A stretch of 64,000 nt of DNA, taken from contig NBIV01000007.1 in the NCBI GenBank assembly GCA_003194525.1, forward strand, positions 434,001 to 498,000. The letters run 5' to 3'. The position numbers were made by a program, and so were the translations under genes. This DNA is from Gracilariopsis chorda (taxonomy: Eukaryota; Rhodophyta; Florideophyceae; Gracilariales; Gracilariaceae). The notes under the pieces were generated by a model. That model had not been told where the DNA came from. It searched no databases and worked only from the letters and a program-made list of their open reading frames with translations. This document shows, one piece after another, positions 4,232 through 37,196 of this stretch (position 1 is its first letter; each line of letters starts with the position of its first letter).

Positions 4232-4882
4232 ATGAGTTCTTCTTTGCATCGACCCCCATCACGAAGTGGTGGTCGCCGGTCAGAAGCAGGCCGTCGTCCA
4301 AGAGAGAATACACAGCCCGTGCATCAACGAGACATAACTGATGAGCTTGCGCAGGTGGACTTAGGAACTGGAACCCAGCCTCCTCAAAATGTTATGGAAC
4401 CTCACAACCCTGAGGAGATATACTTGAACTCCTCTCATTCTTCCGTTATTCAACAGGAACGAGATTGGACGGTTATGCGGTTCGCTGGGAGACCTCGCCA
4501 AGGCATTCACTATGGAGCAAAATATGTCTGGGATGCAAGGGCAGAGAATATTCGCCAAGGCCTCGCACGTCCAAGCTCTTCATATCCGGAGTACCAACCA
4601 GTCACTGGCACACTTCCAGCGTGTTGTGGGACGTGCAGTGCAAACGGCCATCGAGCACCTCGGTGTCCTCTCAAAGATTCGGGGTGGGTGCTTCGTATTC
4701 GTATGTGCAAATATTGTGGCGCAGTTCTGCTTGGTGCAGAGACCGAAGGAACATGCTGTGGATATAAAAGCTCCAGATCGCTTGGAGTTTCTTTCAGACG
4801 AGTGCATATCAATTCGCAACTTGAAGACATATATCGCTTGCGTTCTTTTCAAACGGTATCAACACACTTAAATGTGTTATTT
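4232..4882 (+). pseudogene. Helitron protein, N-terminal zinc-binding part
   Basis: The frame opens at ATG 4232 (MSSSLHRPPSRSGG) with an Arg/Ser-rich leader, then a CX2CX4HX4C knuckle (CGTCSANGHRAPRC), then CKYCGAVLLGAETEGTCC, which resembles the C-x2-C ... CC cluster near the N-terminus of Helitron proteins. It ends at THLNVLF, directly against the terminal repeat of the 7.1-kb insertion. After the insertion and its TT duplication the next codons read ATVVTFMDM in the same frame, which fits the YN..LAFTS-type block that follows the zinc region in Helitrons. The Helitron assignment of this part rests mainly on that continuity. Confidence 0.65.
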
Positions 4883-4905
4883 CGTCGGTGTTCTCGGAAT
4901 GCTAG
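4883..4905 (+). repeat. Left terminal inverted repeat of the 7.1-kb element
   Basis: This 23-bp end matches the reverse complement of 11962-11984 at 22 of 23 positions. The match stops exactly where the Helitron coding frame stops, and TT flanks it on the outside. The repeat finishes with GCTAG, which is then reiterated inward. Confidence 0.8.
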
Positions 4906-5150
4906 ATAAGGGTGCTAGATCGCAAGTTTGTTAGGCAATCACTCAAAAAAACTACGAAAACGCTAGATTCTGCTAGTTCGTGGTGGTTGGCAAGCAAAAA
5001 AAAAAATTTTTCGGAAATCACTCTTTCATATTTTCTATTGTCATCCGTCCCTAGTACCGCACTTCGCTAGTTTCAAGTTTAGAGCAAGTTCTTTGCTCAC
5101 TAAACGCTAGTTAGAGGGCTCGAAATGGCGCTGGCCGCGTAGCGGCCAGC
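4901..5150. repeat. Left subterminal GCTAG repeats and a terminal hairpin
   Basis: GCTAG followed by A or T occurs near 4901, 4913, 4961, 4970, 5058 and 5106. The right end carries the same word in inverted orientation near 11850 and 11961. A perfect hairpin, GCTGGCCGC-GTA-GCGGCCAGC, lies at 5130-5150. Clustered short words next to a TIR are typical transposase-binding arrays of CACTA-like elements. The hairpin may also end the transcript of the minus-strand gene that stops at 5325. Confidence 0.55.
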
Positions 5151-5324
5151 GGCCCCACCCCCATGCAACCCAAATTAACTTACATATTTCCATCTCGTGG
5201 ATTTCAAACTTCAAATTGTCAAAGTTTGGAGCCCAACTGTTCTCTCAGCCTCACTGGGTGGCACCCACACTCTTGAACACCAAACATAAAACCTCCCTTA
5301 CCATCCTTACCATCCTTCTTCTCC

Positions 5325-6083
5325 TTATCCTCTCATTCCACGCCTCCTCTTCAACCGACTCTCACCTTCTATTCCTTCGTCGTCCTTCTCCTCCAACCTC
5401 TTCCTTACAGCCCCTCGACCGGGAGTAACAGGAGTGCCTTCCCCGACAACAGCTCTCCCTTCCGCATCACACACCTTCTTCTGCATTTCCTCGATTAGAT
5501 GCACAGCCCTACCAACCAGTAAAAGTTGCTTCTCCAACACCAAAACCCGTCTACGCATCTCCTCGTTCTCCTTCCACAGTCTCCTCAGCTCCTCACCCAC
5601 ACACGCCACAACCCCATCGACATGCATTTCCGCCCACACCCCAGCCTCCCTTGCCCTCCTACGCAGCTCAGCCACAGCACCCATAGGCACCCCTTCCTCT
5701 GAAGAACTCAGCACCATCCCCCCCATCTCCACCACAACCTCCTCGATACACTCATCCAAACGCTCCTTAAGCCCTCCGCCCACGCTCCTCACCAGTTTCT
5801 TCACATCGCGGTAAAACCGACTCATTCGCCCCGCCCCACCTCCTCCTCCTCCCCGTCCTCCTCGACTTCCCTCGCCCTCACTTCCCTCCCCCCCATCCCC
5901 TCCCATCATCGTCCCAACCCCAAGCTCCCCGAACCCAACAACGTTCCTTCCCTTGCCCTCTTCACCATCACCCTTCCCTTCCTCCTCCTTCTTCGTCCTT
6001 GGAGGCGTCTCGGGGACCTCCCTCTTCTCCGCTTTATCCAACAACGCCAGTAGCTCCTCATCATTCACGTCTTCGCTAGACAT
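5325..6083 (-). CDS. Coiled-coil, Glu/Gly-rich cargo protein (252 aa)
   Basis: The start is the ATG giving MSSEDVNDEELLALLDK; the upstream in-frame start at 6104 is GTG and less likely. Order along the chain: an acidic helical head, a Lys/Glu-rich then Gly-rich linker (about 35-95, including GGRGGGGGGAG), a helical region with DVKKLVRSVGGGLKERLDE, and a heptad-like coiled coil (EELRRLWKENEEMRRRVLVLEKQL, roughly 165-205). It closes with a basic tail ending RLKRRRGMRG that could be a nuclear signal. I do not recognise a family. The gene lies inside the 7.1-kb transposon, on the same strand as the transposase and 240 bp from the membrane-protein gene. It has no stops or shifts despite sitting in decayed DNA, which suggests a working role. 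Confidence 0.65.
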   Translation of the reverse strand: MSSEDVNDEELLALLDKAEKREVPETPPRTKKEEEGKGDGEEGKGRNVVGFGELGVGTMMGGDGGEGSEGEGSRGGRGGGGGGAGRMSRFYRDVKKLVRSVGGGLKERLDECIEEVVVEMGGMVLSSSEEGVPMGAVAELRRRAREAGVWAEMHVDGVVACVGEELRRLWKENEEMRRRVLVLEKQLLLVGRAVHLIEEMQKKVCDAEGRAVVGEGTPVTPGRGAVRKRLEEKDDEGIEGESRLKRRRGMRG

Positions 6084-6325
6084 GGCTACTACACGCCCCA
6101 CCACAACGGCGCTCCCGTTCCTAACCCAACCACCAAGCGAGCACTCCCCAGGTACTTATCCAACCGCATTTTTTCACTCGCCCGTTTTCGCGCCATTTCC
6201 CACCGAGTCGTGTCCCACCAATAATCTGAAACGAAAAATTTAGAACGACATTAGTTTAACACTTCCTTCAGTTTACAACTCTATCACACTAACTTAGGTA
6301 TGTACAGGTAGAACTACGAACGTGT

Positions 6326-7522
6326 CTAAAGAAATGGTTCAAAACGAGAACCAACAGGCCTACAGTGCTCTCCTAGATTCGCAACATACCTTCGAAAATG
6401 GTACTCCAAGTCCATATCCACAGCCATACCCAAAAGAAGCAGCACGAAAAAGATAGTATTCTCCACTACAGGCGCGAGTCCCCTTACCTTGTGCAAAGAA
6501 GTATCGCTCAGGAACGTGAAAATCAAGTAGGTAAACACAACAGGGAACACCCTTCCGATATAGAGCCTCATAGTAGCCACACCATCTCTAAACCCAAGCA
6601 CCTTATTCAAACCACCGTATACGGTCCTGCACACATCCAAAATCAGCCCAACACTACCTCTCTGCACATATGGGAGCTCTCTCTCATTGTTAATGCTGTC
6701 CCTAGTCACAAAAAACATCGTTAGCCGTTCAACCACATACGACATACCCCCAAACATGAAACCACCAGTGAAAAATGCAAGAGCACCAGTCCTAAGTTCC
6801 ATTCCAATCGAAATTGGCGCTTCCAAGAAGTGATAGCCAACAAAAATACAAACATTCAACGGCAAAAGACCTGCCATCGTGAATCCAAGTAGTCTGTTTC
6901 GAATCACAGAAATCCGTGCCATTCGCTGGCTGTCCCGCAAAGGTACGTATGCCAATGAACCAAAATGCCTTCTATGCAATGCAAACACCATATCGAAGAT
7001 AAACAAATGCAAAACAGTCTCCAGAACTACCACAATCAACATCTTCGGAGACATTCGAACATCCCCTACCACATAATGCATCAAAAGCGGTTTCAATACA
7101 CCATAAAGAGCACCAATGGCTAATGAAAACAGAAACGCATATGCGCACCAAGCCCTGAAACTGAACATATGACGAGGGCTTCTAGAAACGTTTGGCGCAT
7201 TCTCCAGATATTGTATCAAATGAGTATTCCCGTACAGCACGTGCAAAAAATTTGAATTCGTTAAGATATAATTATGTGTCGGTACTTCGTCTAGAACCTC
7301 GTATATCTCCGTCACATCCTCCAAAACACCCGCGGTGAGCAACCTTGACGCCCCTCGCACAACACCCTTCTCCGTATCCGTACTATACCGAATTTCAAGT
7401 ACTTCGTCAAACCGAATCACCGTCTCATTCCGAAAGATATTCAGATACGCACGAGTCCTCCGGTCACTCTCGGAAGACTGCAAATAGTAGTCGTGGTGCT
7501 TGTGGATGTTCTCGAATGCCAT
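6326..7522 (-). CDS. Multi-pass membrane protein inside the transposon (398 aa)
   Basis: The start is the first ATG, giving MAFENIHKHHDYYL; the frame is open further upstream but has no ATG. The first 120 residues are soluble and acidic. About six hydrophobic spans follow: FRAWCAYAFLFSLAIGALYG, MLIVVVLETVLHLFIFDMVF, LLGFTMAGLLPLNVCIFVGY, ALAFFTGGFMFGGMSYV, FPVVFTYLIFTFL and NTIFFVLLLLGMAVDM, roughly residues 125 to 375, with a short tail after them. No transporter signature is visible and I do not recognise the family. It is intact and lies between the coiled-coil gene and a divergent small gene within the 7.1-kb element, so it is best treated as cargo of unknown function. Confidence 0.65.
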   Translation of the reverse strand: MAFENIHKHHDYYLQSSESDRRTRAYLNIFRNETVIRFDEVLEIRYSTDTEKGVVRGASRLLTAGVLEDVTEIYEVLDEVPTHNYILTNSNFLHVLYGNTHLIQYLENAPNVSRSPRHMFSFRAWCAYAFLFSLAIGALYGVLKPLLMHYVVGDVRMSPKMLIVVVLETVLHLFIFDMVFALHRRHFGSLAYVPLRDSQRMARISVIRNRLLGFTMAGLLPLNVCIFVGYHFLEAPISIGMELRTGALAFFTGGFMFGGMSYVVERLTMFFVTRDSINNERELPYVQRGSVGLILDVCRTVYGGLNKVLGFRDGVATMRLYIGRVFPVVFTYLIFTFLSDTSLHKVRGLAPVVENTIFFVLLLLGMAVDMDLEYHFRRYVANLGEHCRPVGSRFEPFL

Positions 7523-8083
7523 GTTTGAATGTCGATCACGATTGTACCTCCTCCCCACTTGAACCAACCTCTTCCTCGCTTATATGCACAACGTACCATC
7601 CTCCGACTTGCTAAACCCTCCCAATTCCAAACACGCGAAGCAGGGTTTTGAACCAGTACACGATAATGCATTCAGTGTCTACACTCCTTTTCATAAATCA
7701 AGCACTGCTTGCACCCCACACCGCATTCTGATATGAAAGGAACCACTACCTTCACTATGGACACATTTGGGAACCGCAGTCTTTCCCTGTAGCAATGTCG
7801 TGCTTCACATCCCTACAATCTCCTTTAATTCTCATAAATAATTACATATTCACTTTCATTTACATTTATATCTCATATGATTTGTCCACTATACCTTTCT
7901 TTATTCTCCCCACCGATATACCCGCCCACCAAGTTTCTTCTTATACCTGTACCTCTCTTAATAAAATATAACAGAGCTTCATCTTTCCAGACATCATCCC
8001 TTCACTATTAAACATCATCCAACACAAATGGCGTCATCTTTTCCACTCCCATCACCCTGTCCCTCTATTTACATCTATTCAAC
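7523..8083. other. Divergent intergenic region inside the 7.1-kb element
   Basis: No gene is seen. The segment separates the minus-strand membrane-protein gene from the plus-strand 106-aa gene and turns AT-rich after 7800. TAATAAAATATAAC near 7960 is a possible core promoter for the rightward gene, about 120 bp before its start codon. An out-of-frame ATG at 8028 precedes the chosen start and could act as a short upstream frame. Confidence 0.4.
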
Positions 8084-8404
8084 ATGTCAGAAAGTCGCTT
8101 CCCTCCTCATCCTTATGTCGCAACAACACATCGGGAGGAGGTACCCGTCGTGATGAGAGAACTTTTGCGCCTTGTAGCTCTTCATACACGAATTCATCAT
8201 AATACTCTCACCAATGAGCACTCCATGGAAGCACTACTCAAGTACGGAAAATCCCTCACATCCCTCAAGGCCTCCTTCTCTGAGTTTCACGTTCGAAACG
8301 GTTTCTTCTATGAAATCTCAAGAAAATTGAAGGAAGCTGGAGCTAAGGACCCAGCCCCCCTCCATACAAGGCTCGTAGACGTTATCCAGTTCCATATTGT
8401 ATGA
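8084..8404 (+). CDS. Small helical cargo protein (106 aa)
   Basis: ATG at 8084 gives MSESRFPPHPYVATTHREE, then a predicted helical body (VVMRELLRLVALHTRIHHN and MEALLKYGKSLTSLKASFSE) and a C-terminal helix (FYEISRKLKEAGAKD). It has no Cys-rich motif, signal peptide or membrane span. An AATAAA lies at 8468, about 65 bp after the stop, and could be its polyadenylation signal. The frame is short but the composition is protein-like. It is transcribed away from the other cargo genes and toward the 86-bp palindrome. Family unknown; a DNA-binding or adaptor role would be a guess. Confidence 0.5.
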   Translation: MSESRFPPHPYVATTHREEVPVVMRELLRLVALHTRIHHNTLTNEHSMEALLKYGKSLTSLKASFSEFHVRNGFFYEISRKLKEAGAKDPAPLHTRLVDVIQFHIV

Positions 8405-8639
8405 TAGTACTCAATAGAAGACCCATCATGAGTATGATACTTGCTCACATCCATTTCAAAAGAAACGAATAAACACATTGCACTAATTTAAGTCAAGTTT
8501 TACAAACGTTTATCACCATATATACTACTTATCATCATTAATCACTTTCATCGTCCTCTCCTATCAGACCCTGCAATCCTTTAGGGACCATCTCTCCCTC
8601 CTCATCATTTTGCATTGGTATTCGAAGTTTGTTTTTGGG

Positions 8640-8725
8640 GGTGGAGGTCCGTGGACCGGAGTGTCGTGGCGCTTCATCAGGCGCCTGATGAAGCGCCACG
8701 ACACTCCGGTCCACGGACCTCCACC
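8640..8725. repeat. 86-bp perfect palindrome with no spacer
   Basis: Two 43-bp arms are exact reverse complements with the centre between 8682 and 8683 (CAGGC|GCCTG). The arms begin GGTGGAGGTCCGTGGACC and match at every base. It lies between the 106-aa gene and the transposase. Perfect long palindromes without a spacer are unstable in most genomes, so this one is probably young or maintained. Confidence 0.97.
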
Positions 8726-8735
8726 ACGTGGCGGC

Positions 8736-8872
8736 CAGCAGTTCCGAAAATCAAAAAATTAGTTTAAAATTAGTGTCTGGAATGAACGGACATCTGCGGT
8801 ACGACCTAGTAGGTCATGGGCGGAAGATGCATGGTTCATTTTACACTAATTTTTTGATTTTCTGAACAGCTG
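8736..8872. repeat. 28-bp inverted repeat around the transposase 3' end
   Basis: CAGCAGTTCCGAAAATC... at 8736-8763 recurs inverted at 8845-8872 with three mismatches and an 81-bp spacer. The right arm lies inside the last transposase codons (SENQKISVK). It could be a small MITE-like insertion that became the gene's 3' end, or an internal regulatory repeat of the element. Confidence 0.75.
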
Positions 8873-11417
8873 GGTGGCGAAGGTCCGTGGATGGAGAGAG
8901 TGTCTGCGGAGAAGAGTTCTTGAAGAAGTTTTGGAGAAGTGTTTGGATTGGATCCGAGGTACTTTGCAGCAGTGAAGATGTCGTAGAATGAGATTCGTTT
9001 TCCGTCGCGTACAAAGCATGGTTTTCGGGGTTCGGTTGGAGTTTTTGATGGAGGATGAGAAGCAATAGAGGGTTCTGCTGAGAGTGGATTCCAATCCTTG
9101 ATGGCGGTGGAGCGGTCTATAGCGCGGATGGTTTCGTTGTGGGCAGTGGCTCTTCGTTTGGATGTCTTGGAGTAGTGAGATTTGAAGAGGACGTGGGCAT
9201 GTTCGAATATGCCTGCGTCGTTGAAGTGCAGACCTCCGTATCTACGTATGTCGTCGACGATGTGATCGAGGAGATGGAACTTGAGGGTACCGAGGTGCGA
9301 AGAGTGGTAGGGTCCGAGGACGGTGGTGGCTGTGAGTTTGAAGGATCTGATCTGTCGTTCGAGTGATTTGAGAGAGTCTTCGGTCCATTCGGAAGTGGAG
9401 TTGTATCGCATGGCGTAGAGAACGAGATCTGTGTACTTGGTGAAGACGGAAGTGATTGGGGAGGAGTCGATTTCGTTGCAGCATCTGTCGAAGAATGCTC
9501 CGATGAAGGGGAATACCATGTCGAGTGCGCGGTAATCTTTTGCTTCGAGCATTCCACGGAGTCCTTCTGTGGTGAAGAAGCCGTTAAGAGCTTGAGCGTT
9601 GTCGGAGGTGGAGAAGTCTATGTGGAGTCCAGTTGCAGGGGAATCTTTTTCGATGGCCGCAAGAATGGAGTTGGAGTGTTTGAGGATGGAGGTGCGGATG
9701 GATTGGAAGGATCTCTTGGATTTGCTGGGACCGACAATGGAGAAGAGGGAATCGGATCGGAGACGTTCGATTGCGGTGGCTTTGATGAGTTTAGAGACGC
9801 CGAGGTGGACGTTATGCAGTGGCTCGAAGGCGAAGATGTTGTAAGAAGAGAGAAGCGGAGTGATGTTGAAGATGGGGTATGATTCGAAGAGAGAAGTGTA
9901 CTTTGCGAGGGAGAGAGAATGAAGTGCTGTTGCTGCCTCTTCTTTTTTGGTGCGTGCCACTTTTGGTTTCCGGGCGAGTTGCGCTTCCTCGGATTCGCGG
10001 AGAAGGCAGGTGTGCTGTCTGCGATTGGTTCGAGTTTGGAGTTGTGTGCGGAAGGGGATGGGATCTGTATTGAGGAAGAGGTGTTCCCGAGGGACGGTGC
10101 ATCTCGGGCAAGGGTGCTGCGGCCGTGTTCCGTGGGAGATGGCGAGGATGTCCTTTGCTTCGGGGATGTCTGCGCAATAGCTGGCGAGGATGGGGTGGCA
10201 GTGGCGGAGGACACCGTGAGCGTCACGGAAGGAGAATCCTGGGAGCGCAGAGGTGAGGAGTGGGTTGAGGATGGTAGAGATGGCGCGCTGAATGAGGTTC
10301 ATTTTGGTCTCGCGTGGGATGTTGGAGGATGATTTCGGGACGTAGTCGCCGCCGTCGTCGAAGGCGGTAAACGGGGAGAAGGAGGTTGGAAGGTATCCGA
10401 GGAGTGTGAGATTTTCGGATATACACTTTCGGCGGAGGGCATCGGAGAAGTTGAGAAACGTGACGTGGAGGGGGTAGGAATTGACGGAGTAGCTTTTCAG
10501 GGAGGTTGCGGACTTGTCCGAGTAGAGCTGGACGAGGCCGATGAATGATTCGATACCGGTTTCCTGGGGGTGTGCCAGACGATGTCATCGACGGGGGACT
10601 GCATAATTTCCTGTTTGATGGCTGGGACGACTTTCTTTCCGAGGGCTGCAGCCATGGGATGTGCGAAAGCCGGGTGACCAGAAGACGAAGAAGATGAGGA
10701 AGATTGAGATACCGGCTGGAAGAAGGTGTTGTTGAGGTGTGCGAGTGCGAGTTGTTGCTTGAGGACGTCGATGGCACGTTTCTGGAAGAGGGTTGCGGAG
10801 AAGGTGTTGCGCTTGTCTGTGATGGTGGAAGGGTTGAAGCCGTTGGAACTGATGCGTTGCTTGAAGAGGTCCTCTTGCAGTGCGAGGCACTGCTTGGCGG
10901 AGGAGATGGAGGTCTGGAAGGAGGACTTGGAGAAGTCTGGATGGTTGAGGATGGAGATGAGCTCGTCTGCTTTGCGGGTGCTGACGGAGGATGCGATGGA
11001 GGAGATGTAGAGGACGAGTTGTTCGAGATGAGGGTTGTCGGCGAGAGGGGAAGGGGAACGAGAAGGGGGCGGGAGAAGGGGGTTTGAGGAAGAGACGGAG
11101 CCGATGGCGTGACTTGCGATATGGTAAGCGTCTTGGGTTTGAAGAGAGAGGGAAGCCTGTTGAAGTTCATATGGATCATCATCGGCGAGGGGGACGTTGT
11201 CGGAAGGACGGTGAGAGGGAAGGGGAGGAGAATTGATGGAGAGGTTGGGAACGGATTTTCGCTTCTTGGTCCTGGGAGGGAACTGAACTGGAGCGGTGGC
11301 TGTGGAGGAGGAACGCTTGTTGGCGGTGAGGCGATGGGGGCACCTGCGTTGGTGACTCTGAAGAGAGTATGTGGTGCGGCCGTGGAAGGAGCAGCGAGGG
11401 TAGCAACAGGGGAACAT
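8836..11417 (-). pseudogene. Plavaka/KDZ-like transposase, one frameshift
   Basis: The start at 11417 gives MFPCCYPRCSFHGRTTY, a C2H2-like N-terminal finger (CCYPRC...HQRRC) as in fungal Plavaka proteins. Later blocks fit the family: LYSDKSATSLKSYSVNSYPLH, a CPRC pair (QHPCPRCTVPRE), LHNVHLGVSKL, and near the end KFHLLDHIVDDIRRYGG with FEHAHVLFKSHYSK. Positions 11417 to about 10570 are in one frame and the rest to 8836 in another. The switch falls at a run of five G at 10566-10570, so a one-base indel (or sequencing slip) explains it; a short intron is possible. There are otherwise no stops over 850 codons, so the copy is young. The protein would cut and paste the surrounding 7.1-kb element. 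Confidence 0.7.
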
Positions 11418-11639
11418 GGTGCGGGAAGGAGAGTTGAAGGATTGGAAGGAGAAAGGGGAGCAAAGGGGTTGTTGGAGAGCGAAATGCGGGAGCGTAATTA
11501 TTATGGCGCACGGGGATGAAGTGGAGCAGGTGATGCCGAGCGTTTTGCGCTGGCTCGTGGACTGGTGCATGCTATGCAAGGCCGCAGACACTGACAACGA
11601 GTGAAGGATAGCGAGGGCTATCATGTTTTGTAAACTCTA

Positions 11640-11961
11640 ATTTATTTCCTATATATGTATTTATCTGAGCATCCTATCCTTCTATTTGAAGGGGCAGTTC
11701 CGGTGGTCCGGTCAGATTTTCAATCTCACCTTCACATGTGAAGGTATGTAGTAGTGGAGTCTGGACTCCACTTCGCGGAGTCCGGACTCGGTTTTTGGTC
11801 CGAAATAACTTGGAAATGTGAAGTGCTTTACTAGTTTATACTTTCAAAAAACTAGCAGTATTGAATGTGTGAAAATATTTTGATGGAAATTGATTCATTC
11901 AAAAGTGGGTTTTAAGAGTCGATATCCGTCCATTTCAATTCTTTCCCTTTTGATTGTCAAA
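11640..11961. repeat. Right subterminal region with palindromes
   Basis: No gene lies in these 320 bp. They hold an 18-bp perfect palindrome, ACCTTCACATGTGAAGGT (11728-11745), and a 13-bp hairpin with one mismatch (11757-11789, GAGTCTGGACTCC facing GGAGTCCGGACTC). Inverted GCTAGTTT words match those at the left end. The layout mirrors the left subterminal region of the same element. Confidence 0.6.
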
Positions 11962-11984
11962 CTAGCATTCCGAAAACACCGACG
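11962..11984 (-). repeat. Right terminal inverted repeat of the 7.1-kb element
   Basis: The sequence CTAGCATTCCGAAAACACC and the four bases GACG after it are the reverse complement of 4883-4905 with one mismatch. TT follows at 11985-11986, matching TT before the left end, and the Helitron frame resumes at 11987. Confidence 0.8.
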
Positions 11985-11986
11985 TT

Positions 11987-12630
11987 GCAACCGTTGTCAC
12001 ATTCATGGATATGAAGTACGTTCGGGGTGGAGGTCCGTCATTTCTTCGACTTCAAGGCAATGTGTCTCTTTCTTTTCCAGGCCAGGACGTGCGGTACACA
12101 TATTTGTGGTCGGAAGGTCCTCCCAGTCTTAATTCACGGGATTATTCTTCTTCTTTCACGAGAAGAATGGTGTCTAACCCGAATATTCGATACTTGGTTC
12201 CAAAGTTGTACGATCTCATGCAACCAAGACCAGATATTGTCCGACAGAGATATAGAAATTTGTTTAGACCAGACGAAAGTGTTCGAAGGAGATCAAACGC
12301 GGACGAATCTACTTTGGACATCTCTGCAGACGCTATTCAGGAAGGAATAGTTGTCCGGAATTATCAAGGTGCCCATGACTCCCGAATCGAGGTGAGCTCT
12401 GGTGCAGGACCGTTACCAGAAGACAGCCGAGGCCGACCTCTTGCAATGAGAGCTTTCGTCGTAAAGCCAAGTGGACTGTTCAGGTCCGAAGCCCCAGTTG
12501 CCCAGCTGGTAGGCGGAAGAGAATCCCATCACATGTCAACCGGAAATCTTCGACGTCGAATTGTCAAGTACAAGCGTTTGAAACCTGACTCAATGGAACC
12601 TGAGAAGGGAGCTTTTCCACTGCTCTACCC
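11987..12630 (+). pseudogene. Helitron protein, region before the Rep domain
   Basis: The frame reads ATVVTFMDMKYVRGGGPSF, then FLRLQGNVSLSFPG, RYTYLWSEGP and LMQPRPDIVRQRY, and ends PEKGAFPLLYP. These correspond to the FTS..., FRI.G..YH.IGSLLP, NP...FR and hPLxYPLLFPyGe blocks of Helitron proteins. The last block is cut after PLLYP by the Harbinger element. After its TTA duplication the next codons give YGEIHAPYD in the same frame, completing the usual LLYPYGE motif. Confidence 0.75.
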
Positions 12631-12896
12631 TTAGGCCCGTTCTACATTAGGACAGACCCAAGAAATACAATGGACACGAAAAACAGCTGAAATGGTCCCG
12701 AGCCATTTTTGAGCCGAGCGGACAATTTGGCGCCAATGTAGAAACGCTGCAACGACAGTGAAAACGATAGTTCCCTTTCGCGGTAGACAGAAAGAGTGCG
12801 GCTGTTCTGCGGTATACAAGCCTGTTTGTAAAGCTCAAACACTACGCTTCTCGTCTTCCTCCTTACCACCTCAGTGCAATTCTCTGTTCTAGAGAA

Positions 12897-13610
12897 ATGA
12901 GCGCAAGTCCCGACAACATCTCACCCAATGCAATGGCAAACACTGCGCTGTCTTTACCGGAGAATGACGCTTTACAATTGGCTCTATCTTCCCCACAAAA
13001 GGAAAAAAAAGATACACCAACGAGTGAGGCAATAGCGAACACATCAGAAAACAAAGAAAAAAGAGCCACAGACACACAGAACTACGATGAAGACACCGTT
13101 CAAATCTTGTTCAGAATGATGTTGAAAGCAGGATACGGAAACAGGAAAAAGCAGAAGAAAAGTCTGAAAGACGTATTTGTTGAAGCCACAAAGCTTGCAG
13201 AAGCGGAACACGGAGTCAAACACACAGCTAAAGGATGGCAAAAAACGTTCACCAGAATCAAGCAGGAATATTCTACTTTTCTAGCAAAGATCGCACAGTC
13301 TGGACGCGACGGCGATGATGAAGACCTTTACAACCGGCTTCAGTATTTTGAACTGATGCATGAAATTGAGAAAGGAAAAGCTCGTCACGAGCCACCGGGC
13401 CAATGTTCGACTGACGCTATTAGTCGCTTAACAGAATCCGGCATGTCTAGTGCACGCGAGAAAGCAAAATTAGGACACCAGTTAATGGTGGAGTCCTACT
13501 TAGAAGCGCAAGAGAAACGCTATACCCTGCTTTTGGAGGAATTGAAGCGCGGCAATGAGGAGAGAGCCAAAGTTCGCAATGTTCTGGAAGAACTTGTCCT
13601 CAAGTTTTAA
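12897..13610 (+). CDS. Harbinger-1 Myb/SANT-like DNA-binding protein (237 aa)
   Basis: ATG at 12897 opens a complete frame. A Ser/Lys-rich disordered head (1-60) precedes a trihelix/Myb-like region (about 65-140: DEDTVQILFRMMLKAGYGN ... FVEATKLAEAEH ... KGWQKTFTRIKQEYSTFL) with the spaced Trp/Phe pattern of SANT-type folds. A helical tail (HQLMVESYLEAQEKRYTLLL) may form a coiled coil. In this superfamily ORF1 proteins bind the terminal repeats and help bring the transposase to the nucleus and to DNA. The gene is intact, unlike its partner transposase. Confidence 0.8.
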   Translation: MSASPDNISPNAMANTALSLPENDALQLALSSPQKEKKDTPTSEAIANTSENKEKRATDTQNYDEDTVQILFRMMLKAGYGNRKKQKKSLKDVFVEATKLAEAEHGVKHTAKGWQKTFTRIKQEYSTFLAKIAQSGRDGDDEDLYNRLQYFELMHEIEKGKARHEPPGQCSTDAISRLTESGMSSAREKAKLGHQLMVESYLEAQEKRYTLLLEELKRGNEERAKVRNVLEELVLKF

Positions 13611-13613
13611 GGA

Positions 13614-14855
13614 TTATTTGCCCAATTCGTTGTTCACGGCATAGTAAAGTAATGCATCTCGTTGTATCTTACATGCAGATGTTTCTGCAATAATTGTATC
13701 ATCCTCCTCCACAACTTCATCTTGCGGTAACACGAAGTCTTCGAACTCTCCGTCATGCACAGAAAGATTGTGCAGTATCATACAAGCAATACACATCTTA
13801 GCAATTTCGTCTTCATGATGAAGGCGTACTCCATCTTTCAAAGCCAGAAACATTTGCTTCAGCATTCCGAATGCGCACTCTACTGGCTTTCTAGTTTGAC
13901 TACCAATGCCATCCTAATACTTCAGTACTGGGTTTGCCGCATGCTCACGTGTACTAGTGGTCTTCATCAGGTTCACTGATGTCGTGAATGCGCAGTCTCC
14001 AATCAGGTAGGGTCTGACAGGAATTTCAGCAATTACTAAATCCGGGATATTGTTTCCCAACCACAAACCATTTTCAATGTGGGCCTTTAAGCTACTGCGG
14101 TCGTAAATGGTAGAATCGCCGAGCACCCCAGAACGACCAACATCGGCATAGATAAACTTCCGATTTGCAGTAGCCACTGCAAAAATGACAATACTGGGGA
14201 ATCCTTTGTAGCATCTGTATTCATAGAACTGCTCATCAGGGCATGAGAGCCACTTAATGTGAGTTCCATCAACTGCTCCGACACAATATGCCAAGCCGCG
14301 GATGTCACTGAATCCTTTCATTGCTGCTGCTACTGTTTCTTCTTCGACCGGAAACCGAATTGCCTGTTCGTAAGTAAGCACTATACACTGTGACACCTCG
14401 GATATGATTGTGCTAACAGAGCTCGTTCCTATTCCCAACTGGCATGCAGTTTTTTCGCATGTGGATCCTCCTGCATAGAGCAGAAATGCTGCTAGTTTGA
14501 TTTCTGCTGGCAATGCTTTTCGAAATTGTGTGTTGCTGCGCTCGATTGTAGGCCGAATCTCATTCGCAATTTTGAAGAACAAGGTATAGGGAATTCGAAA
14601 CATTCTAGACCAAGAAGCAGAGAGTAGGAATTCTGTCGATATGGCATAGTCATAAAACCAATTTGGATTGTTGCGAGATCGCTTCCAAGATCTCCCAGGG
14701 ATACCCTTTCGATTGTCGGTGTTGATAGATAGAATAACTGGGACATCATCGACCAATGACTGCGAAAGAGCCCCAAGAGCTACGTTGTCGTCATCGGCAG
14801 AAAGAAAGGCGGCTACAGCCATGAGTAGTTTTCGCCGGCGATGATCATAGTTCAT
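13614..14855 (-). pseudogene. Harbinger-1 DDE transposase with one in-frame stop
   Basis: The first ATG gives MNYDHRRRKLLMAVAAF. DDE_Tnp_4-type motifs are present: CVGAVDGTHIKWLSCP with the first Asp, FIYADVGRSGVLGDSTIYD with the second, YLIGDCAF, and RKPVECAFGMLK with the Glu. Upstream is a helix-turn-helix-like block (LPAEIKLAAFLLYAGGS ... ACQLGIGTSSVSTII). A single TAG (13914-13916) falls between VLKY and DGIGSQTRKP, just before the catalytic Glu block; a C-to-T change of CAG would create it. Everything else is in one frame to 13614, so this copy died recently. Confidence 0.88.
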
Positions 14856-15037
14856 GTTGAAGATCTGTGGCGGTGTTGTCCATAGCGTGTACCCGCCTTC
14901 AAAGCGAGCCCAAGATCTGAACTGTTTGGACGCGAGTGGGACAGAAATCAAAATGTACTGGGAAAAGGGAATTTGACAATACTTGGGGATTCTCGACAGT
15001 ATGCGCCATGTCTTGTCCTAGTGTAGAACGGCCCTTA

Positions 15038-17041
15038 CGGTGAGATTCATGCCCCGTATGATACAGCAACATATACTTCATCGAGGGATGCGAACAACCG
15101 AGACGAAAGGAGCCTAACATGGGCAGAACACTCTAAGCGAAGACTGTACACCGATAATGTGCTGCTGAAATCTGGTACTCTTCTTCAGCAATGGTTGCTT
15201 CGTACTATCACAAACATTGAAGACTTGAGACTTCGTTACTTGGAAACAGAACAGATGAGAATGGTTGAAAAACGGGAGCTGCAGGCTGGAACCCATACCA
15301 GAACAGATGAACTTGGCCCTCCTGGTAAACTCTTCCTTCCCGGTAATCACAAAAACTCTCCGGCGTATTGGAAACAAAAATGACTGGATGTGCAAGCAAT
15401 GGTAGCTCGACTGGGCTCCCCGACGCTTTTCGTCACATTCACAATGAAATTATGGCGGGAAGAGATGAAAAGGCTTAGTATGGACAACGAAAACACCGGA
15501 GCATTTTCTCCACAGGGAGACAGATGCCGTCCTTTTCATAGGCCAGATCTTATTGCAAGAGTGTACAATCAGTATGCAAATTCAATCATGAAGGATCTAC
15601 AGAATAATTCAGAAGAGCTCTTTGGCTTGAAATGCATTGGGATTGCCGCCAAACTTGAGTTCCAGGAGAGAAATACTCCACATCATCATATTCTTTGGTT
15701 GGACGGGGGCGTAATTGAAGATTCTGAGATCATTGACACTTTGATCAAAGCCGAACTGCCTCGGGTGACTCGACTGAGGACCAGGAACTCCGAAAATTGG
15801 TGAAGAAATTCAATATGTACAGACACTCTCCATATTGCCGTGGTCGTACCTCTGACGGGAGGTGCAGATTTGGGTATGATCGACAAGAAATTGTGGCTGA
15901 AACAACGATAAATGAGTACACAAATCGAAAGAACTACTGAAGAAGAAGGACAGAAGATTTGAAAGTGGTTCCGTACAATCCAGATCTCACAATGAAGTAC
16001 AAGGCTCACATCAATGTTGAAAGAACCCAAGGTGGCAGCGCCGTAGCATACCTGATGAAGTATGCTTTCAAGAGTGCCAAAGAACAGGATTTGGTTGTAT
16101 CAAGTCGAACGGAAAGCCAATCAAGTGCACAGAGCGACATGCTTCAAGATGAGATCAGGGCGTACATGAGAGCGAGAGTGGTGGGCGCGGTTGAAGCTGC
16201 ATGGAACCTCTTTGACTTCAGGCATGTTCGCATCAATCCAACTGTACAGGCGCTTGACATACATATCCGTGTAGAGCGACAGGTTTTGATTCGAAATGAA
16301 AGACTGCCTAGACGTCTGAAGTCTTCCCTGCTGGAAAGACATTTCAGAAGAACCTCCTGGTACATGGACTTGGACTACATGACATACTACGAGACTGTAC
16401 GTGTATACGATAAGCTACCCCGCTCTGTACCAGAGTCTGACTCCACTCGGGATGGAGGAAGTCCACGAATGTACGTAGTGCAGCGATCCGAGAATGATCG
16501 AACTGTGACTCGAATTAGATTTGCTTCTCCCGCAAATCTCGAACTATTCGCTCTTCGAAAATTGTTTATGAACTCTGCATTCAGCTCCTTTGATGATCCA
16601 AAACGTGTTGGGAGCGAATCCTACTCAACTTATAGAGAAGCGGCAGTAGCCCGTGGACTATATATCCATGGTGACGAGTACGAAACGGCTTTTCATGAGG
16701 CAGTATGATACCATGCTACTCCTGCTGAGCTGCGTTACTTGGTCGTCACTTCTTTTCAACAAGGGATAAATCCTAAAACTGTGATTGAAAAGCACGAACG
16801 AGCTCTAACTGCAGATATAACCGAGAGAATCCGAGCACAAAGAAGAGAAGAACTACTTCGAAGAATCATTGAGATTTCGGACAGACATGGCGGTCGGCTT
16901 ATCAGAAATGATCAGTTCTTTCATCATACTGTATCACAACTTCATCTCAGAGAGAGCGAACTGCAATTAGCAGAGGAACAAGCTGAAGTACGTCGCAGCT
17001 CTTCTTCGAGGTCCAGGCGAAGGTAAAAAGAGAGATATGAT
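15038..17041 (+). pseudogene. Helitron HUH (Rep) endonuclease region
   Basis: Diagnostic blocks appear in order: LGPPGKLFLPGNHKNSPAYW, MVARLGSPTLFVTFTM, then ERNTPHHHILWL, which holds the two-His HUH motif. Next come VVPYNPDLTMKYKAHINVE and the two-tyrosine motif AYLMKYAFK. The family nicks DNA and joins to the 5' end for rolling-circle transposition. The region carries TGA stops at 15381-15383, about 15939 and 16706-16708, a TAA at 17024-17026, and one frameshift near 15770-15800. Most of the motif residues survive, so decay is recent. Confidence 0.88.
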
Positions 17042-18547
17042 GATCTGAAAGAAGGCCAGAAGCAAGTTTTTGACAAAATAATGAGAGAAATAAAATACCA
17101 AGATAGAATGGGAGAGTCTGAAAGATGCAACACACACGGAAGCGTTTTCTTCTTACAAGGACGAGCGGGGACAGGGAAGACCTATCTCCTATCTTTGCTG
17201 AGAGATATTGTTGAGCACGAAGGCTTATTGGTGCAGATGACAGCCGCAACAGGTATTGCTGCTGCCCTATATGAAGGCGGAAGAACTTTGCATAGTTTGC
17301 TTGGATTGGGAGTTGATGACAAAAACGATTCGCAGAGTAGAGAGCGTCGGACACTTTCCAAGTACGGACCACGATCACAGAGAGCAGAACTAGTACGGAA
17401 GATTATTTTGCTGGTAATTGATGAAGCTTCAATGTGCCCGAAAATGCTCTTCGAGAGTGTGAACACCGTACTGAAGGACTTAAGAAACTCTACGAAAGAC
17501 TTTGGAGGCATGGTCGTAGTTATGGCAGGCAATTATATGCAACTGCTTCCAGTCGTTCCAAGAACGAGAACAGTATCCGAAAAGGATGGAACAATTCGTG
17601 TAATTCCAGTGAGTCTCCTACGGGAGCTTCCATGGTACTCTTGCGAGCTTTGGGTCAGAAGAGTGAAAGTTCTTCGCCTTACAGAACAGGTTCGTCAACA
17701 AGATGATCCAGTTTTTGCAAAAGGTTTGCTCAGTCTTGGTCGTGGGACGTTTCCAGCATCTTCAAGGCTTCCGCTTATGTCTACGTCAGATGTACACGAA
17801 GCATACAAGTTGATTTGGAAATGGTTTACAACACGGAAGAAAGAAGATGTCAAGCTCAACCGATTGATTGTTGCGCCAACAAACCAATTAGTGGAGGAAC
17901 ATAACCAGAACGCATTGGAGTATTTCCCAGGAAGGATGTTTGCCTTGAAGTCTGCAACGACGATCGTTCCCAACCGAGGGCCAACCGGTGAAAACTTGCA
18001 CACAAATAGTATCATTGGACCTGAACTGACGTATAATTACGCTCCAACTGGAGTCCCGCACCACCATTTGAAACTGAAGTTGGGTGTTTCTGTTATGGTG
18101 ATTCGAAATGTACTTCATCCGCACTTGTTGAATGGAAAGATGTTTATCGTTACCAGCATTTCTCTCAGAGTGATTCGACCTTCGGGCATTGATGAACATG
18201 GAGAAATTCAGCAAAGCTTTTTAATGCACCGTATTGACATTGTTTTCGAGTTTGCAGATGTGAAAATCAAACGTCGACAGTTTCCCATCAGATTGGTATT
18301 TGCAGCAACTGTGCATGAAGCGCAAGGACAAACGCTGAGGAAAATGATAATTGACTTTCGAACAAACTTTTTTTCGCCGGTTCAGGTCTATGTTGAACTT
18401 TCGCGTGTCAGAACATCTGACGATGTGTTACTGCTGCATAGTGAAGACGAGACGCCTTGAAATGCGCAGGATTTCCATCCAATGCCCGTGAGCATCAAAA
18501 ACCCTGTTTTCCAAGAAGCTGTAGACTTTGTAGATGGGCATCATTAG
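17042..18547 (+). pseudogene. Helitron Pif1-family helicase region
   Basis: Walker A is FFLQGRAGTGKTYLLSLL, followed by MTAATGIAAALYEGGRTLHS (motif Ia), Walker B LLVIDEASMC, GGMVVVMAGNYMQLLPVV (motif III), and late motifs VFAATVHEAQGQTLR and VYVELSRVRTSDDVLLL. This is the SF1B helicase fused to Rep in Helitrons. The frame continues past a TGA at 18458-18460 as NAQDFHPMPV...QEAVDFVDGHH to a stop at 18547. The older fragment at 1-789 has an Arg codon at the matching place (LRNAH), so the TGA is a later C-to-T-type loss. Confidence 0.88.
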
Positions 18548-19012: not shown

Positions 19013-19331
19013 AGGCCCTTCTTAACCTTGTAGGGGTATAAGGATAACCTGGATACACCAATGGTACACAGTCTAGAAGTCGCGAATGAAAAAATTGCGT
19101 TTATTGCAATTTTACAGACGGATAAGATGGAATAGAGAGTTTACGAAAGTAGATTTTTTTCACATGGCTTGCAAATTTCGTGAAACGTATTACAAGTTTC
19201 CGGTCTAAGAGAAAGCTTGATTTCCGAGCCAAGTCATTTATTCTCTTACAGCCCGAGTTTGTGAAGTTCGCTTCACTTGTATTTTGTTCAATTCGCGGGA
19301 ATTATTCCCGCGTATATTATATGAGGTTCGT

Positions 19332-20339
19332 ATGTCTGTCCATGAGGAGGCCAGCTCCTTAATCTCACCTCTACGCAAACTACTCCTCGCGAAGCCCATA
19401 CTTGGCACTACTCGCATTCCTTTCCTCTTCGATATGGCTACCCCGCTGCCTTCCTCCCCTGAATCGGTCCCCAACCCCCCTGTGCCTGCTACCATCCAAA
19501 CGCCGTCTACCGTCACAAGCACACCAACCACGACGCCTAAGACTACCAAGAAAAAACGCATTCGCTTCTCTGCTGCATGGGATCTGTTCCTACTTAAGGC
19601 TATCTCTGCAGTGGATGCCCATACCGCGCCGCACGGCGAAACGCAACCAAGATTCGAAGAAGCGCTGCAAATATTTTTGGCTGCAGTCCCGGAATCCTGG
19701 CTTGCAACTGTAACGGCAACATCGTGGAAGACCCTTAACGATCGCTTCAAGAAAATTATATCTGAGCATAGGAAGGCTGTCAATTGTAATGCAGTTGCAT
19801 CAGGTATAATTGAAGTGCGAGGGGAGCGCGAAACTTTATTAGATGACTTGATTCTGGAAATAGATGAGTTCGAAGAGCGCCGCCGTACCGAACGTGATGA
19901 GGGTACAGAGCTAGATAAACGTCTTGTCGCAGCTGGAGCACAAATGCGAGCTCGGGCGCTTTCAAGAGAAAGGTCATTGGACCGAGAATCTGGTGAGGAA
20001 TCGGAGCAAAAGCGGAAAAAGCGCCCACTCATCGTGGATTCTGATGACGAAGAGCAAGATATGATTAGTGCTCATATCGCTGCTCGTAGGGAGATTGAGG
20101 GGAAAAGGCTCAAGTTGGAAGAGGACATGTTCTGTTTTGAACAGAGAAGAGAGGAGCGGGAAGAATCGCGTTTGCAGAGGGCACAGGAGTTGGAAGAGAA
20201 GCGACTGACGCTGGAAGCGAAACGAATTGATATGGAAGAAAAAAGGGCTGCTATGGATAGGGAGCAAATCAAGCAATATGCTGCTGAACGCACAGCCACT
20301 TTAGACGTGCTGGCAGCCCTAGCTAAGAAACTGCAGTGA
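19332..20339 (+). CDS. Harbinger-2 Myb/SANT-like protein (335 aa)
   Basis: The earliest ATG in the frame gives MSVHEEASSLISPL; a second (MATPLPSSPES, 19434) may be the true start because the first overlaps promoter-like sequence. A Pro/Thr-rich head precedes a Myb-like trihelix block (KKKRIRFSAAWDLFLLKA ... SWKTLNDRFKKIISEHRK). A long charged coiled coil fills most of the rest (ERRRTERDEG, RREIEGKRLKLEEDMFCFEQ, EEKRLTLEAKRIDMEEKRA). This is the usual ORF1 of PIF/Harbinger elements. It is complete, with no stops. Confidence 0.78.
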   Translation: MSVHEEASSLISPLRKLLLAKPILGTTRIPFLFDMATPLPSSPESVPNPPVPATIQTPSTVTSTPTTTPKTTKKKRIRFSAAWDLFLLKAISAVDAHTAPHGETQPRFEEALQIFLAAVPESWLATVTATSWKTLNDRFKKIISEHRKAVNCNAVASGIIEVRGERETLLDDLILEIDEFEERRRTERDEGTELDKRLVAAGAQMRARALSRERSLDRESGEESEQKRKKRPLIVDSDDEEQDMISAHIAARREIEGKRLKLEEDMFCFEQRREEREESRLQRAQELEEKRLTLEAKRIDMEEKRAAMDREQIKQYAAERTATLDVLAALAKKLQ

Positions 20340-33856: not shown

Positions 33857-35924
33857 CTACAACTTTGCTGAGACTTTCGGCACTGCATGCTCACTTTCAC
33901 AACTCATCGTCGCCGCCCCAATACCTTTTGTGATGGCGTCAGCTTCACAATCACCTGCAGCCAGTGCAGCTATACAAACTCCAGCAAAGCAATCACCGGC
34001 TCCAGTTGTGTTCACCATCCCACTTCTGACATCTTTTGCGTCAAAGTCAGCGATTTGCAAACGTCCATTTACGCAAGAGTATTGACGGACACCTTGTTCT
34101 CCACGAGTGCATATCACAGAAGCCTTCTCTGCACACGACCTTAACAGGGCAAGGGCGCAGTCTTCAATGCTCCCCACACAGCCGAGCGCTCGACCCATTT
34201 CACAGAGCTCTGCTTCATTTGGGGAAGTGTACTTCACAGCACTGAGAGCACTCGCCATTACAATGCGAACGCATTTATGAAGACTTGTCGGCTCATACCA
34301 TACCGGTACGCCAGCTTTGGCGCATTGTGAAGCAACCTGGCTCAGCTGGGAAGGCAAAAGATTACCGTCTATGAGGGCAATTCGTGCTGTTCGAAGCGCG
34401 GAGGTAATATCTTCGAACGCGTCGTTTGCAAGAGGCACTCCATCGTGTTCTTCATTGCCAAACATATCGTTCAGATCTGCAACTGCAACCTTTGAAGAAA
34501 GCATACAACGTGTAAGTATACGGACAAAGACAATGTCAGCCCACTCCGCTTCGTCAAACTATACGAAGGACATGCCTTCTTTTGCTCAGTAAACGAGTCC
34601 AAGAAAGGGAAAAACTTACGGCGAGGTCTCCCCGATGATCATGCACAATGCTAACAACACCTGAACGCTTCCCAGGATATTGTCTTACATACCTTGTGTC
34701 CATGCCTTCTTGTTGCATGAAGCGCAGAAGTGTTTGACCAGCAACATCATCTCCAACACAAGATACAAATGTCACTCGTGCATTTCCAAGCGTGCTAGCC
34801 GCATGAGCGATGTTCCGACCAACGCCTCCAGCACATATACGGATAACACCCACGTTTGAAGTACGAGGCAATAACTCGGATCGCGGGTCGCAGTGAACAT
34901 CAAGCGCAGTGCCACCAACTACGAGCACATGAGGTTTGTCATCGGAAAAAGAAGTGAACGCCCTTTTCTGCAGTTGGGATAAATGCGCTGCAAGGCGTGC
35001 TGCAACGGCGGCATTGTTCTCCGCAAGTGCGATGTTTGCGCGTACCGATGCACCCTTCGTGAGCGCTGCGACTCGCTTTAAGAGGAAGGGGGTTACCTGG
35101 TTGGAGGTGAGTTGCTGTTGTTGCAATTCCTCCAATGCACGTCGCTCCGCCGATTCAATAAGGTTTGTATCTGCATCGAATCGTGCTGGGATTGGTACGG
35201 CCAACAACATTCCGCTTCGCAGACCGAGTCCCAGGGAATGCAAGAAGACGCTGGCAACATCTCGCTCAGATTGGACAGTAACAGGGGCTCGATGGGAAGA
35301 TCCGCGATGCAAAAAGGCCGGGAAAGACTTTGAACCAAGCACTAAAGTGGGAACAGAAGCGGTTTCCAGCAGTTCGAGTGTATTTGCCACGTCAAGGACA
35401 GATTTGACTCCCGCAGATACGACCAGCTGTGGAATGTTGGCCAATGCCGGGATATCTGCAGATATATCAAGCGGATGGGGAATACCCCTGTGTACACCCC
35501 CAATACCACCCGTGGCAAACACTTTCACGCCTGCAGTGGAGGAAAGAAACATAGTCGCTGCCACAGTAGTGGCGCCGTCTTCTTTTCGAGCCATTGCAGT
35601 TGGCAAGTCTCTAATGCTCAGCTTCCGCACATTTTGCGAGCGACATATGTGTGCGATTTGTTCATCGGTCAGCCCGATGAAGGGCACTCCGGAAAGCATG
35701 GCAACAGTGGCTGGTACTGCGCCATTTGCGCGAATTACATCCTGCAGTTGATGCGCAGCTCGTTTATTGTGGGGACGAGGTAGACCGTGGGCTAGAATAG
35801 TGGATTCCAATGCTACGACTGGGTCGCCGCGTGCAAGCGCCGCACGGACCTCGGGATGAACGCAAAGGATGCGTGCGACGGACGCTCTCGACTTCGAGAG
35901 CTCAAGCTCGCTCCAGCTGTGCAT
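33857..35924 (-). CDS. Pseudouridine-5'-phosphate glycosidase / pseudouridine kinase fusion, two exons (645 aa)
   Basis: The protein joins a PsuG (IndA-like) domain (about 15-325) to a PfkB-family kinase domain (about 335-640). The kinase phosphorylates pseudouridine and the glycosidase splits the C-glycosidic bond to uracil and ribose 5-phosphate. PsuG motifs are VVALESTILAHGLPRP (Glu40 matches the catalytic Glu), FATGGIGGVHRG and VVSAGVKSVLDV with the Schiff-base Lys. PfkB motifs are VVGGTALDVHC, ICAGGVGRNIAHAASTLG and the C-terminal signature VNTTGAGDCFAG. Exon 1 is 35924-34620 and exon 2 is 34489-33857. The 130-bp phase-0 intron (GTAAGTTTTTC donor, CTTCAAAG acceptor) joins HRGDLA to VAVADLNDM. 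The fused order G-K is known from other eukaryotes. Confidence 0.93.
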
Positions 35925-37196
35925 GATGCGCTCAGAGCCAGGGAAGTTTGCTTTGTGACCGCGCTGTAATCTGAAGATTGATCTTCAATCATGCATCCTT
36001 TTTTTCTTGCCGTCAGTCGGTAGCGTTAGCAATCTACCCTTGTTAAGAATACTGTACAGTACTCAAGAGAGCATCTAACCGTCTCTCTCTTCGGTTCTTC
36101 GATTTATACAACGTGCGCTTGAATACATTGGTAATGGGTTACGAAGAGTAGCCTTCCAGCAGGGGTAACCATTTACTTTGAGATTGTACGGGTTTGCCGT
36201 GGACGTTCGGTTCTGCGGCTTGCGGATGCCCCTGAGAGCATCGGCGGGCGGAACTGCATGTGCGCTGAGCGGGACTCGCCAGCACCTTGTGGTGATCCCT
36301 CACCACAGCAAGTATCCAGCGCAAAGCGATTTAGCATCGTGGGCTGCGCCAATTTTGATGCCCCTGAATGTAATATGACAGCGTTGTGTGAACACCGAGT
36401 AAAGTTTACTGACGGTACGGAGGGTAAAGAGTTAAAGGGTTACAACAGCTTTACACGCGTTGATACAGCGGGTGCGATGCATGTGCGGAGTACGATTTGG
36501 TGCAGTCATGATTGCGGCTTGCATTGAGGCATGGGAATGCATGAGAACGGGAATGCATACGAATGGCAATGCATAAGAATGTGCTTGAGATTCATTTCAA
36601 AGCGGGTGTTGCAACATGCAAGTCAAGACAGGGGCCCTCGCACCAACCATAGAACGTGATAAGTCGCAGGGCGCAGCTCCTGTGATGTGGTGTGTGCAAC
36701 CAGTAGTGTTGCGGCAAAGAGCCTTCAGCGAACGCGCTCTCTTTTCCAGAGCTTGGATAAGGCTTGGTAATGCTGGGAGTGGGTTGTAATGCACAAGTTG
36801 CGCGCTGCGCGTGTCTGCGTGTGGGAGAACAAGCGCGGAGCTGCGCCATCATGGCTCACGACGGGCTGCGGTTGGAGACGGCGGATTCGGATTCGGATTC
36901 GGTAGCTTTGCACGTGGCCACACAGCACGCTCCAACGCGCCGTGCGCCAGTGCTGACGCACGCATCATCATGATGCTGGCAAAAAAAATGGCACAGTAGC
37001 CGTACAACCGAGCCCCGCGCCCCACTGGCCAACGCCGCACAACTCAACTGCAAAGTGCACGTGCACCCAGCAACGCCATAGATAGTGCACCGAAAAGTCG
37101 TGCCACGCCTTCCCTTCCGTTATCCCATTCTTCGTCCTCCCCCGCGCGCATTGCTTACCAACGCTCTCCCAAGTCTTCTCCACCCATCGCGTCATA
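35925..37196. other. Gene-free interval with repeats
   Basis: No gene is visible in 1.27 kb. It holds R2 copy 2 (36245-36341) and a 16-bp tandem repeat, GGGAATGCATGAGAAC, three copies at 36533-36580. ATTCGGATTCGGATTCGG lies near 36888. The last 300 bp are the likely promoter and leader of the SPFH gene, and are CpG-rich. Confidence 0.5.
36245..36341 (-). repeat. Dispersed repeat R2, copy 2 (inverted)
   Basis: On the minus strand it reads CACGATGCTAAATCGCTTTG, then GTGGTGAGGGATCACCAC, GCGAGTCCCGCTCAGCG and CATGCAGTTCCGCCCG, collinear with 28527-28624. Confidence 0.85.

Follow-up and report, generated by a model that had tools for sequence, protein, structure and literature searches.

A 7.1-kb transposon of probable Plavaka lineage with two further long reading frames in the red alga Gracilariopsis chorda

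Introduction

Autonomous Plavaka transposons are defined by a PF18759 domain (PMC8290104), and in Plavaka and its clade a C(2)C and an H(3-4)H motif lie between the second catalytic aspartate (D) and the last glutamate (E) of the transposase (PMC12730594). Their termini read TGT..ACA in PlavakaA and CATCA..TGATG in PlavakaB, those of the clade being CA..TG "in most cases" (PMC12730594). Here we describe a 7.1-kb element at positions 4883-11984 of a 64-kb stretch of the Gracilariopsis chorda genome (contig NBIV01000007.1, positions 434,001 to 498,000; the whole analysed stretch is hereafter the window). The element has defined ends, a target duplication, an interrupted reading frame around it, a DDE core and two further long frames within its ends. 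We consider it fairly probable that it is a cut-and-paste element of the Plavaka lineage with two extra genes, perhaps for an end-binding protein like TNPA of En/Spm and for a long-resident passenger or helper, lying inside an older frame.

The locus resembles the fungal elements PlavakaA and PlavakaB (Kojima 2025, PMC12730594) in its transposase family, its 2-bp target duplication and its C(2)C and H(3-4)H motifs, but differs from them in its termini, which are CGTCG..CGACG. Since the published Plavaka termini are absent, the element is placed in the Plavaka lineage by its transposase, outside PlavakaA and PlavakaB. Some fungal Plavaka elements also bear an extra gene, TET/JBP (PMC12730594); the extra genes of the present element match no Pfam family at an E-value of 1, and so include no TET/JBP. 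The giant repeats of Amoebidium likewise combine a Plavaka transposase with further genes (PMC11244446). However, they form tandem clusters of up to 50 kb, many of them with tyrosine recombinases, whereas the element studied here is 7.1 kb long, has defined ends and shows no recombinase match.

Algal relatives are also in print. EnSpm-Plavaka of the green alga Auxenochlorella is, like the present element, a Plavaka-type cut-and-paste element in an alga (PMC12633428), so that an algal host for Plavaka is no novelty by itself. In the red alga Chondrus crispus, the enlarged EnSpm/CACTA families (cited in PMC6431247) are EnSpm relatives with 4-5 open reading frames (ORFs), but measure 16-20 kb. 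In En/Spm-type elements, repeated subterminal words are the sites for TNPA (PMC2613891). By analogy with TNPA/TNPD, the Gracilariopsis element may combine a transposase with a second protein for subterminal repeats; such repeats, an En/Spm feature, are present, and their binding by an acidic zipper protein is putative. Unlike En/Spm, this zipper protein belongs to no Pfam family, and the element has neither the CACTA termini nor the 3-bp duplication of En/Spm proper.

A preliminary description of this DNA knew of no element with such a gene set. None was found here either: the literature on Plavaka/EnSpm elements, as far as it was available and with most subscription journals and Repbase outside the search, yielded no zipper or membrane protein described in such an element. 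The claim is nevertheless narrowed by the EnSpm elements of Chondrus with their 4-5 ORFs (PMC6431247) and the Plavaka gene clusters of Amoebidium (PMC11244446). The present analysis adds three features to the preliminary description: the 3' end of the transposase recurs as an inverted duplicate, a perfect palindrome of 86 bp lies next to this duplicate, and the GC skew reverses there, more strongly than in any other 7.1-kb segment of the window. A literature search on skew or palindromes in transposons gave nothing relevant by title among the matches listed.

Ends and insertion site of the element

The features that delimit the element are the following.
4232..4882, + strand: left piece of the interrupted frame
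4881..4882, no strand: TT target-site duplication, left copy
4883..4905, + strand: left terminal inverted repeat (TIR), pairing with the right end at 22 of 23 positions
4901..5110, + strand: left subterminal GCTAG words, six in one orientation
11852..11966, - strand: right subterminal GCTAG words, two, inward-facing
11962..11984, - strand: right TIR, pairing with the left end at 22 of 23 positions
11985..11986, no strand: TT target-site duplication, right copy
11987..12634, + strand: right piece of the interrupted frame

A search for the 23-bp TIR with up to three mismatches returned exactly these two sites in the window and none in 100 shuffles, and the exact TIR had no match in viral_contigs. 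All GCTAG words at the ends face inward and none is reversed, with six on the + strand in the left 250 bp and two on the - strand in the right 250 bp. In the remainder of the window, more than three per strand never occur within 250 bp, and GCTAG is not over-represented across the window as a whole (66 found, 85 expected). The TT duplication fits the 2-3 bp of Plavaka (2-5 bp in the clade), two identical bases alone being weak evidence. Excision of 4883-11986 fuses the flanks, from 4232 to 12634, into a stop-free frame of 432 amino acids (aa); two neighbouring cuts tried instead ran into a stop after 226 and 265 aa. The preliminary description had recognised the TIRs, the TT duplication and the subterminal GCTAG words at both ends, and had taken 4883-11984 as one mobile unit. 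All of these observations were borne out, and together with the rejoined frame they establish that the mobile unit is real.

Near the right end, at 11728-11793, there is an 18-bp perfect palindrome, accompanied by short inverted GGAGTC..GACTCC repeats that were noticed by eye.

The older frame hit by the element is probably a Helitron, which is the likely target because an ORF for a PIF1 helicase (PF05970, 1.2e-38) follows at 17027-18460; the assignment draws on this ORF and on motifs taken as Helitron-like. Helitrons are defined by the domains PF14214 and PF05970 together (PMC8290104). In the Pfam scan, PF14214 was not found in the joined product, in either of its two pieces, in 15941-16708 or in 17027-18460. 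The joined 432-aa product had no Helitron match in Pfam, its single hit being a zinc knuckle at an E-value of 7.5, and gave chance matches only against PDB (best E-value 0.6). The earlier claim that removing 4883-11986 restores a Helitron frame thus stands as to the frame, but the Helitron identity of the joined product is not supported by Pfam or PDB.

A Plavaka-type transposase split over two frames

The transposase occupies the right half of the element.
8836..10584, - strand: transposase ORF2, Plavaka DDE core (PF18759)
10497..11417 from the ATG (open stretch to 11636), - strand: transposase ORF1, in another frame than ORF2

ORF2 matches the Plavaka profile PF18759 with an E-value of 5.8e-21 and 75.5 bits (cut-off 26.3), over profile positions 114-318 of 325. 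Its motifs are the D of SDK (codon 10518), the D of ADIP(EAK) (10170), CPRC (from 10110), HLLDH (from 9276) and the E of FEH (9204), the three catalytic residues (D, D, E) being assigned by eye. This succession, D..D..C(2)C..H(3)H..E, is the one published for the clade. CPRC and HLLDH are the sole C(2)C and H(3-4)H matches past the second D in ORF2. ORF1 has no Pfam match, and its ATG precedes a zinc-finger-like motif, CCYPRC..H..RC. Against PDB, the best E-value of ORF2 was 0.14, and four stretches found by pattern in viral_contigs were not confirmed.

The transposase had been described before as Plavaka/CACTA-like, to which the PF18759 match lends support, but not as split over two ORFs in different frames. 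Twelve splice pairs would keep the transposase frame open when donors at 10560-10900, acceptors at 10480-10640 and introns of at least 40 nt are allowed; the single pair with a GTA donor is GTATCT..CCCCCAG, 149 nt. In two host genes, one for a pseudouridine glycosidase-kinase and one for an aldehyde dehydrogenase, an intron could be placed by eye, and both introns start with GTAAGT. The break between ORF1 and ORF2 looks more like a frameshift, whether by mutation, assembly error or programmed slippage, than like an intron. In the present copy, the frame change near 10570 probably inactivates the transposase, unless the change reflects an intron, programmed slippage or a fault of the assembly.

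Further reading frames of the element

Three other ORFs lie between the transposase and the left end.
5325..6083, - strand: acidic 252-aa protein, isoelectric point (pI) 5.4, with a heptad leucine zipper at about residues 159-200 and a basic C-terminus
6326..7522, - strand: membrane protein of 398 aa with five clear hydrophobic spans
8084..8404, + strand: 106-aa ORF, uncertain gene

Judged from its sequence, the 398-aa membrane ORF is clearly a gene, its length being reached in none of 1000 dinucleotide shuffles and its 3-base periodicity, a measure blind to strand, in none of 500. The 252-aa zipper ORF is probably a gene: two runs of 1000 shuffles each reached its length 25 and 16 times, and none of 500 shuffles reached its periodicity. 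The heptad score of its zipper, which was devised after the heptads had been noticed, was reached in one of 2000 residue shuffles. The 106-aa ORF is doubtful as a gene, being marginal against chance in both length (55 of 1000) and periodicity (21 of 500). The preliminary description had counted all three as intact genes. This holds for the membrane ORF, whose length is beyond chance, although hydropathy shows five clear spans where six had been given; the zipper frame is open throughout and has its heptads, but is a gene only with probability, and the 106-aa frame is open but of doubtful standing.

None of the three products matched Pfam or NCBIfam at an E-value of 1. The acidic protein had three weak matches of unknown function in PHROGs (0.0073, 0.0078 and 0.83), 14 chance matches in PDB (best 0.14, mainly over its Gly-rich part) and ten stretches found by pattern in viral_contigs, none confirmed. 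For the membrane protein, PHROGs gave no match, PDB one chance match (E-value 2) and a tblastn search on phages and plasmids no match; two stretches in viral_contigs and seven in genome_contigs were found by pattern and none was confirmed. The 106-aa ORF had no match in PHROGs or PDB and 15 unconfirmed stretches in viral_contigs. It should be added that the libraries scanned were mostly prokaryotic and viral and held little algal sequence, so that the absence of relatives says little. For the membrane protein and the 106-aa ORF, AlphaFold2 without alignment reached mean predicted local distance difference test scores (pLDDT) of 40 and 47, respectively. Scans of the window for Rfam families and tRNAs found none.

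Could these frames be open through composition only, with no protein made? The marginal 106-aa ORF, the shuffles that reached the length of the zipper ORF and the host-codon ranks given below would fit such a view. The length of the 398-aa ORF, which no shuffle reached, its hydrophobic spans and the zipper heptads speak against it, and we regard it as very unlikely.

Codon use bears on the origin of the extra genes. The reference was nine host genes, each with a Pfam match and each left out in turn. Correlation with host codon use was -0.08 for the 252-aa, 0.02 for the 398-aa and 0.25 for the 106-aa frame, and 0.38 and 0.46 for the two transposase pieces; it was 0.34-0.73 in eight of the nine host genes and 0.18-0.34 in four neighbouring pieces of mobile elements. 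The zipper and membrane genes might be host genes taken up recently by the present copy alone, as both frames are open throughout and the libraries scanned would miss algal genes. However, the codon use of both is unlike that of eight of the nine host genes, and the coding and intergenic DNA of the left half are alike in skew, as if they had evolved jointly. Recent capture thus seems unlikely, though not far-fetched. Of the two origins proposed in the preliminary description, a young capture of host genes or genes that serve the element, the former is mildly disfavoured by codon use.

Central palindrome and reversal of the GC skew

Two features lie between the transposase and the remainder of the element.
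8640..8725, no strand: perfect palindrome of 86 bp
8700..8770, + strand: inverted duplicate of the transposase 3' end, pairing with 8838-8904 (local alignment score 82, against a maximum of 30 in 300 shuffles)

Folded as single-stranded DNA, the region 8630-8910 has a z-score of -15.9. The cumulative GC skew turns at 8606, with an excursion of 735, whereas none of 449 other, mutually overlapping segments of 7.1 kb exceeds 490. Left of the turn, the skew is -0.34 to -0.51 in four noncoding stretches and -0.31 to -0.73 at the third codon positions of all three ORFs. To its right, it is +0.75 and +0.68 at the third positions of the two transposase pieces, +0.47 in the open stretch before the ORF1 ATG, +0.25 at 8726-8835 and +0.08 in the noncoding stretch 11637-11838. 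Both ends of the element are skew-neutral (-0.01 and -0.02). A single transcription-linked bias was rejected as the sole cause of the skew, as the acidic and membrane genes have the opposite sign to the transposase although all three occupy one strand. The plainer reading is that the element has two parts of different origin whose codon preferences run in opposite directions, which could account for the skew. It should be kept in mind that the turn and the palindrome both fall between the transposase and the remainder, so that their closeness is not independent evidence.

The turn at 8606, together with the inverted duplicate and the perfect palindrome at the junction, would also suit a composite element, in which two related elements were joined tail to tail or a foreign block was placed left of the palindrome, the left part coming from another source than the transposase. 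Immediately left of the junction, the + strand yields a transposase-like C-terminus (a weak match, E-value 0.05), which points the same way. On the other hand, a search for a second transposase in the left half gave nothing beyond the 3' end (best other tblastn E-value 2.1), and by eye the two ends of the element are unlike each other past the 23-bp repeats. We hold a composite origin to be quite unlikely.

The palindrome at 8640-8725 sits where C-rich skew gives way to G-rich skew, a pattern like that around an origin of replication. We speculate that the element might copy itself extrachromosomally from a central hairpin origin, with the membrane protein serving that stage; the skew of +0.08 in the noncoding stretch 11637-11838 lowers this reading, which we regard as extremely unlikely. 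If true, it would give a DDE transposon a phase of replication like that of a plasmid or virus. A scan of 8400-9000 for bacterial-type promoters and terminators was uninformative.

A Plavaka-lineage element with extra genes

In the explanation that we favour, the element would be a cut-and-paste transposon of the CACTA/EnSpm-Mirage-Chapaev-Transib clade that inserted into an older frame. Its transposase would cut at the 23-bp ends. The zipper protein may dimerise in the nucleus and hold the GCTAG-bearing ends together, like TNPA in maize En/Spm, and the membrane protein would be the product of a long-resident passenger or helper gene with a putative role only.

Several points weigh against this explanation. 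A single copy is known, from the 64-kb window, and one copy does not decide whether the extra genes are helpers of movement or passengers. The link between the zipper protein and GCTAG is drawn by analogy alone, and the termini are unlike those of either PlavakaA or PlavakaB. The Pfam score of the transposase is 75 bits when spliced and 76 bits when read across, where the match starts as early as profile position 93, so that an intron and a frameshift are not separated by it. The frame of the ninth host gene (SpoU) has a codon correlation of -0.02, which makes odd codon use weak evidence. Finally, when the six frames were ranked by host codons, the 398-aa frame came second and the 252-aa frame third, while the 106-aa frame came first.

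Should several copies share this layout, the element would be a compact cut-and-paste transposon of a eukaryote, with clear boundaries, that retains genes of no obvious use for cutting, and would offer a direct test case for a membrane protein aiding a transposon. It would then join the fungal TET/JBP elements and the Amoebidium clusters as a third type of Plavaka that bears additional genes.

Neighbouring sequences

An adjoining element at 12627-15041 has 28-nt inverted arms that are 86% complementary, a 237-aa ORF on the + strand and a DDE_Tnp_4 transposase on the - strand (2.8e-07), a layout that we take to be that of PIF/Harbinger. Excision of this neighbouring unit was tried as a way to extend the interrupted frame; no candidate exceeded 560 aa, and no longer frame was obtained. 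At 19221-20339, a charged 372-aa ORF appears coiled-coil-like by eye (best Pfam E-value 1.8) and is perhaps the second protein of another element. At 33857-35984, a gene for a pseudouridine glycosidase-kinase fusion (Indigoidine_A and PfkB) consists of two ORFs separated by an apparent short intron with a GTAAGT donor.

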